NCBI RefSeq assembly: GCF_015062935.1
Contig: NZ_SUTM01000019.1
Coordinates: forward strand, 1 to 51,306
From: Methanobrevibacter sp.
GTDB lineage: Archaea > Methanobacteriota > Methanobacteria > Methanobacteriales > Methanobacteriaceae
Length of the DNA: 51,306 bases
Reading direction: 5' to 3'
The position numbers and the translations under genes are program-made. The notes beneath the pieces are model-generated. The model was not told the origin of the DNA and searched no databases. It worked only from the letters and a program-made list of their open reading frames with translations. Shown here in pieces: positions 7,411-37,888 of the stretch. How positions within the stretch are numbered: the first letter of the stretch is position 1; every line of letters starts with the position of its first letter.

Positions 7411-8328
7411 TCACAATCCGAATTCTTCTAAAAATGAACATGCCTTACATAATTCATTGGATGATGGCTCTCCGCATCTGACGCATCTTCCATGAGCATA
7501 TTCCTTTTTAAGTTCGTCTTTCAGTATGTTTTTTATTTTATCATAACCCCTTAAAGTGGAGTATTTGATGGTTGGATGTTTTTCATTCAGCTGGTTTATA
7601 AGCTCTGAAACTTCACCCCTGAATGATTGCATGGCATATGGACAGCTGTCAAAATGAACTTCCAGGTCCTTTGCAACAACATACAATCCGATTTCACGTT
7701 CCGGAATTTCCCTAAGCGGTTTGATTTTTGGAGTAAATTCCTCAGCCTTTGATTCTGTTTTTGCTCCGAGTTTAGTGAGATTGTCTGTATTTCCCTCAAG
7801 GTAATTCATCATGATTGCCTGAACTTCATCATCAAGGTTATGGCCTGTTGCAATCTTGGTGGCTCCCATTTCACGGGCTGCCTTATTAATGATGGTTCTT
7901 CTGAATACTCCGCAGTAGGTGCATGACCCCTTATGGTTTTCTCTCTGCATTATTTCATCCAGACTGATGCCGTAATTTTCCTTTAAAGAAACAACTTTAT
8001 GTTCAATGCCTAATCTTTCGGCATGGCGTATCGCTATATCCACACCTGCCTGCCTGTAATTGGCAATGCCTTCATCAACTGTAACGGCACAAATATCTAT
8101 AATGTTCCTTTCACGATAACTGTTCAATATTTCCAGGGTAGTTACACTGTCCTTACCTCCTGAAAGTGCAACCAAAACCTTATCCCCCTTATCCAACAAC
8201 TTTTCTTTTTTAATTGTTTGAATTACCTTTTTTTCAATAGATTCAATAAAACAGTCCTTGCACAGTATCTGGCCGGATTGCTCTTTTTTAATAATGACTT
8301 TAGGATTACCACATTTACTACACTGCAT
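7411..8328 (-). CDS. tRNA 2-thiolation enzyme, NcsA/TtuA/Ctu1 family
   Basis: 305 residues. N-terminal zinc finger CSKCG..CKDC (residues 3-26), PP-loop ATP pyrophosphatase motif VALSGGKDS at about 53-61, a catalytic-site Cys pair around CTYC (about 137-140), and a C-terminal zinc finger CVRCG..CKAC. This layout is that of archaeal NcsA and bacterial TtuA, which activate tRNA uridine by adenylation and add sulfur using an Fe-S cluster. The stop codon TGA is embedded in the ribosome binding site of the downstream sulfur-carrier gene, linking the two in translation. Ten bases separate it from the VWA gene upstream. Confidence 0.9.
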
Positions 8329-26782: not shown

Positions 26783-26838
26783 TTTAGGTATACATAACTT
26801 TGTAAAATCTAATATATAAATATTTAGTTATGACTAAA
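26783..26838 (-). promoter_or_regulatory. feoA promoter with two DtxR-type boxes
   Basis: Seen from feoA, a box TTTAGTCATAACTAAA (26823-26838) lies immediately before the TATA box TTTATATA (26813-26820), and a weaker box TTATGTATACCTAAA (26783-26797) lies 14 bp after it. Both match the TTAGGnnnnCCTAA theme found six more times within perfect or near-perfect sites in this window. Placement on either side of the TATA box is that of a repressor operator. Confidence 0.65.
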
Positions 26839-26907: not shown

Positions 26908-28926
26908 CTATCCGAATCCTGCTAATAAACCTACATTGTAGATTAAGAAGGAAACGATATATGCAGTCACTAATGTAATACCGGACATGATTAACGGCCA
27001 TCTCCAGCTGTTGGTTTCTTGTTTGATTGCACCGATAGATGCAAAACAAGGTACATACAACAGACAGAATGCCATAAACGCATATGCGGATAATGGTGTG
27101 AAAATTTCTTGAACCATAGACATGGTTCCTTCTTCATCGTCTTCTTCAAGTCCACCTAATGTAGCGAAGGTAGATACTACAACTTCTTTAGCAACTAAAC
27201 CTGTGAGGATAGCGATACCTGCTTGCCAGGTTCCGAAACCAAGAGGAGCAAAAATTGGAGATATTACAGTACCAATCATACCAAGAATACTTTGTTGAGA
27301 TCCGTATTCTACACCGAATGGTAAGGAACTTAAAATCCAAATAATTATTGCAGAACCAAGAATAATAGTACCTGCTTTTCTGAGGAATCCTTTGGTTTTC
27401 TCCCAGGTATGTAATAATACACCTTTTACAGATGGGATTTTATAAGTAGGAAGTTCCATTACAAATGGAGCGGACATTCCTTTAAACATAGTTCTTTTAA
27501 GAATACCTGCAACAATGAGTGCGACTACAATACCTAACAGATATATTGATAATAAGATTAAACCTTGATTTGCTGCAAAGAATGCTCCTACAAAAATACC
27601 GTAAATTGGTAATCTTGCACTACATGACATAAATGGAATAAGCATCATTGCAAGTAAACGGTCGGATTCGTTTTCCATTGTTCTGGTTGCCATAACTGCT
27701 GGTACTCCACAACCAAATCCTAAAATCATAGGAATGAATGCTTTACCATGAAGACCAACTACAGTATGCATAATTTTATCTAAAGTGAAAGCAGCTCTTG
27801 CCAAGTAACCACTGTCTTCTAAGATACTTAAGAATAAGAACATCAGAATAATTTGTGGCAAGAACACAAGTACTCCACCTACACCGCCAATGATTCCTTT
27901 TTCTAAGAAGGAACCTAAGACTTCATTTCCAACGGCTCCAGCTAAATATTCACCTAACCATGCAAATCCTCCGTCAATTAAATCACAGAACGGAGTTGCA
28001 ATTGTAAATGTCAAGTGGAATAATAAGTACATTATAACAATAAATATGATTGGAGCTAATACTCTGTTAGTTACATATTTATCGATTTTATCAGTAGTGG
28101 ATTCTTTTTCTACAGCCGGCCTTTTAACAGCTTCAGCCATTAATCCGCCAATATATGCATATCTTGCATTTGCAACAACTTCTTCAGCACCTTCATCGTA
28201 AAGGTCATGAAGGTGGCCTGCAACCTTGTCAACTTCTTTCATTATTGCAGAACGTTGAGAAGATCCCTGAACTTTTTCTATAACAATTGAGTCTCTTTCC
28301 AATAATTTGATTGCTGTCCAAATTGAAGGAACATCCAGTAAATTGTTGTCTTTTTCTATTAAAGCCTGAAGATCACCTAAGTGTTCTCTTAATTCATCAC
28401 CATAAGCTAATTTTGCACTTGAATCTATTGGATTTGAAGATTGCTTTTCAACAGTTGTTAATAATTCATCAAATCCGTCACCAGTTTTAGCGTTAATTTC
28501 TATAACTGGGAATCCTAAAAGTTCACTCATTAATTTAATATCAATGATGTGGTCTTTTTTCTTTGCAAAATCATTCATGTTAAGTGCCATTACTAAATTA
28601 GCACCAAGTTCCATCATCTGAACTGTTAAATATAAATTACGTTCCAGATTAGCAGCGTCAACTACATTAACAATAACATCAGAGTCATCATCTACAATGA
28701 AATCTCTTGAAACGATTTCTTCCATAGAATGAGCACTTAATGCATAGTTACCCGGCAAGTCAACAACATCATAATTGTAACTGCCATGTGAAAAGCTACC
28801 TTCAGCTCTTTCAACAGTTTTACCTGGCCAGTTACCTACATGTTGGCGCATACCAGTTAACCTATTGAATACAGTAGTTTTACCCACATTCGGGTTTCCT
28901 GCCAATCCAATAATTAAATCTGTCAT
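26908..28926 (-). CDS. feoB: Ferrous iron transporter FeoB
   Basis: 672 residues. N-terminal G domain with G1 GNPNVGKT (about 9-16), G3 DLPGNYAL and G4 NMNDFAKK, a helical guanine-dissociation-inhibitor-like domain, then about 9-11 transmembrane helices with two Gate motifs ([13 protein letters not shown] and [11 protein letters not shown]). It takes up Fe2+ across the membrane. The start is the ATG giving [13 protein letters not shown]; the longer open frame adds 12 unconserved codons. No third Feo protein is seen. Confidence 0.96.
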
Positions 28927-29036
28927 TAACCATTCTCCCGTTTTTATTAACTTACAGAACAATATTCATTTTATTAAATATTATTCAATTACTAAAAAAA
29001 TTTTTTTAGTTTAAGTCTACTAATCCATACAAAAAA

Positions 29037-29100
29037 TTAGGTTAACCTAAACATATTTTATATTTGATTTTATGCTATTTAAATATTTAGGCATACCAAA
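29037..29100 (-). promoter_or_regulatory. feoB promoter with two DtxR-type boxes
   Basis: A perfect 14-bp palindrome TTAGGTTAACCTAA at 29037-29050 and a one-mismatch copy TTAGGCATACCAAA at 29087-29100. Between them on the minus strand lie TATTTAAATAG and AATATAAAATATG, either of which could be the TATA box. TTAGGTTAnCCTAA is the core of known iron-dependent DtxR/IdeR operators. The region is shared with the divergent TPR gene, so that gene may be affected too. Confidence 0.7.
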
Positions 29101-29178
29101 GAAAAAATAAAATATTTATATTAAAAAAAAGTATAGAATATTAAAGTAATTTTTATAAACATTAACTAGGTTGATATA

Positions 29179-30321: not shown

Positions 30322-30408
30322 TTTAGGCGTGCCTAAATTTTTAGAAACATTTATATACTATGAAAACAAACTTTAATACAAGTGAGATATAATTTAGGTA
30401 AACCTAAA
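30322..30408 (+). promoter_or_regulatory. Unit A promoter: box, TATA, box
   Basis: Perfect palindrome TTTAGGCGTGCCTAAA (30322-30337), TATA box TTTATATA (30350-30357) inside AGAAACATTTATATA, and a second palindrome TTTAGGTAAACCTAAA (30393-30408). The gap from box 1 to TATA is 12 bp and from TATA to box 2 is 35 bp, the same as in units B and C (12 and 34). No protein gene follows. Confidence 0.75.
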
Positions 30409-30605
30409 TTTTCACTTAAACAAAACATATTATTAGTCAAATAATAATACAATCTCCAAAATATAAATATTTAGTATTAAATTAGCTTTCCACAATTTTC
30501 TAATTTAATACAGGGAAAATTTAATCTGCCAAATTTCCCAAAAATCAACCATTGGTGTTTATAACTCTCCAAAACACATAAACACCAATATTATCTCTTT
30601 TTAAA
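30380..30605 (+). ncRNA. Candidate iron-controlled small RNA, unit A
   Basis: Predicted from the TATA position to start near 30380 and to end after a 12-bp hairpin ATTGGTGTTTAT/ATAAACACCAAT (30551-30562/30578-30589) followed by ATTATCTCTTTTTT. It contains a perfect 11-bp stem TATTAAATTAG/CTAATTTAATA (30475-30510, 14-nt loop) and a short GGGAAA/TTTCCC stem around CTGCC (30513-30539). No ATG-initiated frame longer than a few codons is present. The start and the end are predictions. Confidence 0.6.
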
Positions 30606-37299: not shown

Positions 37300-37490
37300 T
37301 GAAAAGATAGGTGAAATTAAATATGATAGACATATTTAATTTCGTGAGAGTAGTTATATGCTTTTTTACTAAATTAGAAAAGAGAGTTTAAACTAATTTA
37401 GTATAATCGGAGTGTATTAGTATGGTTTTTAAACCAAAAATACGACAGTAATTAAAATTAGATTTTTAGGTAGACCTAATTTTTATCACT
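37300..37490 (-). ncRNA. Candidate iron-controlled small RNA, unit C
   Basis: Minus strand. Predicted to start near 37490 and to end at about 37300, after a perfect 13-bp hairpin GAAATTAAATATG/CATATTTAATTTC (37313-37343, 5-nt loop) followed by U-rich sequence. The family hairpin is TACTAAATTAG/CTAATTTAGTA (37367-37403) with a compensatory C-G pair where A and B have T-A. The end lies about 110 bp before the DUF4012 start, so it might instead be a long leader of that gene if termination fails. Confidence 0.55.
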
Positions 37491-37549
37491 ACTACTAATG
37501 TAGTTGGAAGAGATATATAAATGTTTCTATTTTTTTAGGCATACCTAAA
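37466..37549 (-). promoter_or_regulatory. Unit C promoter: box, TATA, box
   Basis: On the minus strand: palindrome TTTAGGTATGCCTAAA (37534-37549), TATA box TTTATATA (37514-37521) in AGAAACATTTATATA, and box TTAGGTCTACCTAA (37466-37479). The gaps (12 bp to TATA, 34 bp to box 2) equal those of unit B and nearly those of A. Confidence 0.72.
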
Positions 37550-37574: not shown

Positions 37575-37830
37575 GGAGAAAAAAAATAGTGAATTTACAT
37601 CCACTATTTTCAAAAAGAGAGTATAATGAAATAATGATGCTTAATTTTAAGGGGGCTGTAAACATCATATTCGCTTTGGAAAATTTTTTGGCAGTGAAAA
37701 TTTTCGCAAAATATTAAATTAGAAAATTGTGAAAACTAATTTAATACAAATATTCATTTTGGAGACATACTATATAACTAATAATATGTTTTAAAGTGGA
37801 AATTTAGGTGAACCTAAATTTATGTCACTT
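37575..37830 (-). ncRNA. Candidate iron-controlled small RNA, unit B
   Basis: Minus strand, closest relative of unit A: about 70% identity over the first 150 nt, including GAAAACAAACTTT, ATACAAGTGA and CATATTATTAGT. It carries TATTAAAATTAG/CTAATTTAATA (37711-37746, one bulged A) and CTGCCAAA as in A. It ends with a 9-bp hairpin AAAATAGTG/CACTATTTT (37583-37610) running into TTTTCTCC on the minus strand. No conserved frame: the GTG that opens a 20-codon frame in A meets a stop after two codons in B. Confidence 0.6.
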
Positions 37831-37888
37831 GTATAAAAGTTTGTTTTCATAGTATTTAAATGTTTCTAAATTTTTAGGAATGCCTAAA
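37803..37888 (-). promoter_or_regulatory. Unit B promoter: box, TATA, box
   Basis: On the minus strand: palindrome TTTAGGCATTCCTAAA (37873-37888), TATA box TTTAAATA (37853-37860) in AGAAACATTTAAATA, and palindrome TTTAGGTTCACCTAAA (37803-37818). Gaps are 12 and 34 bp. The upstream neighbour is the 3' end of the EF-1beta gene, so this promoter restarts transcription in the intergenic space. Confidence 0.73.

Follow-up and report, generated by a model that had tools for sequence, protein, structure and literature searches.

Unit C, located on the minus strand of the analysed Methanobrevibacter contig, is, as judged from the comparison of orthologous sequences, a free-standing structured non-coding RNA gene and a member of a multi-copy sRNA family conserved across Methanobrevibacter, a genus of gut methanogens. 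We consider it fairly probable (about 0.6) that this is a DtxR-type iron-repressed family which spares iron by blocking the translation of iron-enzyme mRNAs. In the window, i.e. the whole stretch of 51,306 nucleotides that was analysed, unit C comprises the following features:

37307..37490, minus strand: unit C RNA, with predicted ends, supported by the 30-orthologue alignment, the consensus fold and a covariance model
37534..37549, minus strand: upstream palindromic operator TTTAGGTATGCCTAAA, accompanied by its partner in 30/30 orthologues
37514..37521, minus strand: TATA box TTTATATA between both operators, TATA-like in 28/30 orthologues
37465..37480, minus strand: downstream operator, which also lies within the 5' hairpin of the RNA
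37447..37490, minus strand: 5' hairpin with covariation, made up of two helices (15 pairs in total)
37403..37426, minus strand: unpaired segment C1 ACCATACTAATACACTCCGATTAT (unpaired probability 0.81), with predicted pairing to the ehbB start
37368..37402, minus strand: middle stem-loop (300/300 cells paired), whose loop holds ACTCTCTTT, segment C2
37344..37361, minus strand: unpaired, near-invariant segment C3 GCATATAACTACTCTCAC (unpaired probability 0.92), with predicted pairing to the ehaC start
37313..37343, minus strand: invariant 13-bp hairpin GAAATTAAATATG-N5-CATATTTAATTTC, with zero substitutions in 30 species

The body of unit C is 184 nt long and contains three conserved hairpins; its predicted 5' end lies about 25 nt past the TATA box and its predicted 3' end beyond the last hairpin. 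Two TTTAGGNNNNCCTAAA palindromes bracket the TATA box, and the same palindrome precedes feoB. A sequence-only reading of this DNA had described unit C as keeping the promoter layout of the related units A and B and as having lost most of its primary similarity to them. Both descriptions were borne out: palindrome, TATA box and palindrome follow one another at the positions listed, as they do in A and B, and the likeness to A is restricted to the promoter third. The start-to-start distance of the palindromes is 69 nt in unit C and 70-71 nt in units A and B. In all orthologues of unit C (30/30) both operators were found around the TATA box, with a spacing of 59-72 nt. The relatives of the source genome are all Methanobrevibacter.

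The consensus fold, derived from the alignment of the 30 orthologues, consists of 38 pairs, and 99.4% of the cells were paired across these orthologues, in comparison to at most 48.6% in the slid-partner control. Moreover, the cells changed on both sides outnumbered those in all 500 shuffles. The 11-bp middle stem (37367-37377 with 37393-37403) was present where it had been noted, and its ten core pairs were formed in all 30 orthologues (300/300 pair cells). The third pair, C37369-G37401 in unit C and T-A in A and B, indeed differs in both arms, and it had been taken as evidence of selection on structure. Among the 30 orthologues this pair is C-G in 7 and T-A (U-A) in 23, and the swap represents a single change on the DUF4012 protein tree. 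Since it is one event, the third pair is weak by itself and we rejected its covariation as proof of structure. Selection on the RNA structure is nevertheless supported by the whole stem of unit C together with the richer covariation of the A-type paralogues, whose stem was 99.2% paired and showed double-sided changes in five pairs.

The same reading had offered a leader function towards the DUF4012 gene as a competing idea, according to which unit C would act in cis as the 5' leader of that gene, either a riboswitch or an attenuator. DUF4012 lies downstream of unit C on the same strand in 25/30 loci. However, in the other five (L076, L078, L086, L095, L098) unit C abuts a convergent type-II-secretion-F-like gene and DUF4012 is absent, so unit C does not always precede the gene it would control and the idea fails as a general function. 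In addition, the spacing between unit C and DUF4012 ranges from 48 to 398 nt, the A and B units are located elsewhere, and no Rfam riboswitch was matched; we therefore regard a leader function as very improbable. The conservation of the fold among orthologues and the five loci without DUF4012 downstream are among the grounds on which unit C is considered a free-standing RNA gene.

Coding capacity was weighed as well. A short protein gene could be read on either strand, and opposite to the RNA there is an SD-like start (AGGTGA-N8-ATG, peptide M..IFNFVRVVIC) with a peptide kept in most species. Against this, one-base changes in loops or linkers truncate the peptide in L077, L079, L097 and L099, the reading frame at its 3' end changes with A/T runs, and the core is devoid of synonymous changes. 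Small ORFs of either strand were rejected on account of the single-base changes that break the frame, and we give this explanation hardly any weight. It seems just as improbable that the locus is a DNA-only regulatory array of paired operators with an incidental remainder: the operators and the TATA box are the parts common to A, B and C, but the downstream 184 nt are conserved genus-wide and show compensatory changes in pairs as well as unpaired blocks that do not vary.

The 13-bp hairpin had been called terminator-like. Its arms (37313-37325 with 37331-37343) pair perfectly, as was claimed, but they are invariant, and a U5 run occurs within 60 nt in only 17/30 orthologues; with an invariant sequence and no consistent U-run, an ordinary intrinsic terminator was rejected. 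The length of the loop varies while the arm sequence stays fixed in the 30 species. The invariance is uninformative on pairing and implies, as far as can be judged from conservation, recognition of the sequence; the hairpin may perhaps be a protein site or an additional pairing segment. An antisense match of the terminal arm to fdhA codons 2-6 (13 nt in this genome) was discarded, as these codons vary synonymously across the genus. The mtrB start (L114) emerged from a biased search as a weak candidate partner of this arm.

Unit C shares its promoter and a stem with units A and B, which are located in the window together with feoB:

30322..30605, plus strand: unit A, A-type paralogue, operators at 30322-30337 and 30393-30408
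within 30322..30605, plus strand: segment A1 of unit A AATCTCCAAAATAT, with predicted pairing to the fdhA and fwdF starts
37640..37888, minus strand: unit B, A-type paralogue, operators at 37873-37888 and 37803-37818
29036..29101, strand not assigned: unit-C-type operator pair upstream of feoB, two near-copies in equal arrangement
26908-28962, minus strand: feoB

A fourth unit of the A-type with its own operator pair was observed on contig C7 (101762-101994; L108), beside a gene which we take to resemble thiamine thiazole synthase (Thi4). In the relatives L054 and L055 two units stand in tandem in a hybrid arrangement, with a TATAACTACTCTCAGAAATTAA tail of the C-type behind the A-type body. 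A DNA search of 67 genomes of the genus detected unit A in 65 and unit C in 64, at times the promoter part only. The covariance model, built on the final 108 nt of unit C and used with strict filters, found unit C in 55/67 Methanobrevibacter genomes and in 0/72 genomes representing 16 further genera of this family. An Rfam search of the window returned two tRNAs only, and unit C was above the gathering threshold of no family.

Palindromes with up to 2 mismatches were overrepresented in the window (14 observed vs 3.9 expected), a number reached in 0/100 shuffles, and genome-wide there were 16 exact sites vs 1 for the reversed control. A palindrome at a metal-uptake gene, which is expected of a DtxR/IdeR operator, is found here at feoB, and the operator pair is common to unit C and feoB in a genome that carries a single DtxR-family gene (L109:1279-2016). 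We infer from these sequence patterns that the palindrome is bound by a DtxR-family protein. In Methanococcus voltae, FeoB responds jointly with a DtxR homologue in an iron-linked manner (PMC8516115, where the part drawn on here concerns proteins only and no RNA). The position of the operators on either side of the TATA box is the layout expected for repression. Given this layout in 30/30 orthologues, the one DtxR-family gene and the iron link of DtxR and FeoB in methanogens, the unit C promoter is likely iron-repressed via a DtxR-type regulator, although both the regulator and the iron signal are putative. Two imperfect palindromes lie directly 3' of feoB (window 26783-26838). An exact operator palindrome was also observed at contig C2:109588 (L010, L192:9588). 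It lies some 330 nt ahead of the HTH-ferredoxin gene located immediately before fwdF, so that transcriptional control of the fwd genes may exist alongside control by RNA.

While the stems are paired, three C/U-rich segments of unit C stay unpaired (probabilities 0.81, 0.99 and 0.92, the middle value being that of C2 in the loop of the middle stem). Read backwards, these segments resemble SD-spacer-AUG words. A search with the unit A segment matched fdhA and fwdF at their translation starts, as well as two ORF-less copies of the fdhA leader; the search with C3 matched ehaC, and the ranking of stretches gave ehbB for C1. Of 719 ranked translation starts, covering about 32% of the genome, the best for each segment were fdhA and then fwdF for A1, ehbB for C1 and ehaC for C3; the segments were delimited by eye, after their conservation had been seen. 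The target proteins were identified via NCBIfam (Fdh-alpha, FwdF) or operon context (eha, ehb). The mean duplex energies over species, with 9 to 24 different leaders averaged for each gene, were -17.4 kcal/mol for A1-fdhA, -16.5 for A1-fwdF, -19.8 for C1-ehbB and -17.5 for C3-ehaC, and for each of the four pairings 0/200 shuffles were as low in energy. The neighbouring gene fdhC, used as a control, showed no pairing with the segments in this cross-species energy test. In A as in C, conserved unpaired segments show predicted complementarity to the starts of fdhA, fwdF, ehaC and ehbB in several species, beyond shuffled controls. Conserved unpaired complementarity to the SD/start region of iron-protein mRNAs is expected of an iron-sparing sRNA; it became less sharp with the whole RNA, since with all unpaired positions used together ehaC ranked 8, ehbB 13, fdhA 15 and fwdF 24 of 719.

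The sites in fwdF and ehaC overlap with the coding region, and the ehaC pairing contains a mismatch in most species. In the fdhA and ehbB leaders conservation is limited to the region adjoining the start codon. The SD region of fdhC, which is not among the predicted targets, is likewise conserved, and leader conservation alone is therefore weak evidence. An enrichment of eha/ehb as a group among the pairing partners was dropped, because shuffled segments also yielded low p values; this confounding is probably due to strong SDs.

These observations bear on another explanation, namely that the units encode a real metal-regulated sRNA that chiefly partners with a protein or with mRNAs other than those predicted, the fdh/fwd/eha/ehb matches reflecting a generic anti-Shine-Dalgarno composition. 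Many SDs can be paired by C/U-rich segments, eha/ehb as a group are also preferred by shuffled segments, the whole-RNA ranking is less sharp, and the invariant 13-bp hairpin suggests sequence-specific recognition outside the predicted targets. On the other hand, the four specific pairings each gave 0/200 against shuffles across species, each stand at the top of the 719 starts for their segment, and belong to four related iron-rich systems. We consider this explanation unlikely, though it deserves serious attention.

According to the iron-sparing reading, in iron-replete cells a DtxR/IdeR-type repressor on both palindromes around the TATA box would close the promoter. Under iron scarcity it would dissociate, allowing the production of a structured RNA, about 185 nt long, whose hairpins would present the unpaired C/U-rich segments CACUCCGAU, ACUCUCUUU and AACUACUCUCAC. 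These would anneal to the mRNAs of iron-costly enzymes around the Shine-Dalgarno sequence and the start codon: unit C would target the energy-converting hydrogenase operons eha and ehb, and unit A formate dehydrogenase (fdhA) and the formylmethanofuran dehydrogenase polyferredoxin (fwdF). The blocked translation of the targets would spare iron. Both the transcription of the units and the repression of the targets are predicted here.

Near 7955 and 8222 on contig C8 (L160, L161, L314, minus strand), a tandem pair of intergenic elements was observed, each about 130 nt long. Both begin G-rich, contain a hairpin and repeat the fdhA leader perfectly (TTTTGGAGATTATAAAATG), and neither has an ORF; their predicted pairing with units A and B amounts to about -15 to -18 kcal/mol. 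These fdhA-leader mimics are candidate sponge RNAs. A bolder and rather doubtful extension is an archaeal iron-saving network in which several paralogous sRNAs, all controlled by a single metal repressor, share out the iron-rich enzymes of methanogenesis, A taking formate/CO2 entry and C the energy-converting hydrogenases, with the mimics at C8:7955/8222 acting as sponges.

Iron-sparing sRNAs are a standard bacterial solution: RyhB, PrrF and FsrA are iron-repressed trans-acting sRNAs that reduce the synthesis of iron proteins, FsrA has C-rich pairing segments, and such bacterial sRNAs use Hfq or Fbp partners. The family proposed here would likewise be an iron-repressed trans-acting RNA with C-rich pairing segments, as in FsrA, whereas those RNAs are bacterial, with Hfq or Fbp as partners, and unit C has no Rfam match. 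The nearest in design, by analogy, is IsrR of Staphylococcus aureus, whose promoter has two repressor boxes and which has C-rich unpaired regions and binds fdhA at the SD (PMC9410917). SD/AUG pairing and iron-enzyme targets including fdhA are common to both, the pairing being a predicted one in our case. Unlike the present family, IsrR is bacterial, Fur-controlled and a single RNA, with no sequence relation to unit C; ours is archaeal, probably DtxR-controlled, and occurs in several copies with divided predicted targets that include energy-converting hydrogenases. As there is no sequence kinship with the bacterial iron-sparing sRNAs, the resemblance is functional and not membership by descent. 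Among archaea, the trans-acting sRNA162 of Methanosarcina mazei masks a ribosome binding site with an unpaired linker (PMC3510493); it resembles unit C in this respect but differs in sequence, is a single RNA and, in the part of that source used here, is not described as iron-regulated. We found no archaeal iron-regulated or iron-sparing sRNA in the open-access literature that was searched.

Beyond the sequence-only reading, the analysis adds an iron-type operator, a genus-wide family and complementarity to translation starts, and the exact segments for mutation are now defined. Hydrogenotrophic methanogens rank among the most iron-demanding cells. If the iron-sparing reading is true, the same design would have evolved separately under a DtxR-type repressor, and an RNA family would connect the iron supply of the gut with how methane-producing archaea use hydrogenase and formate.
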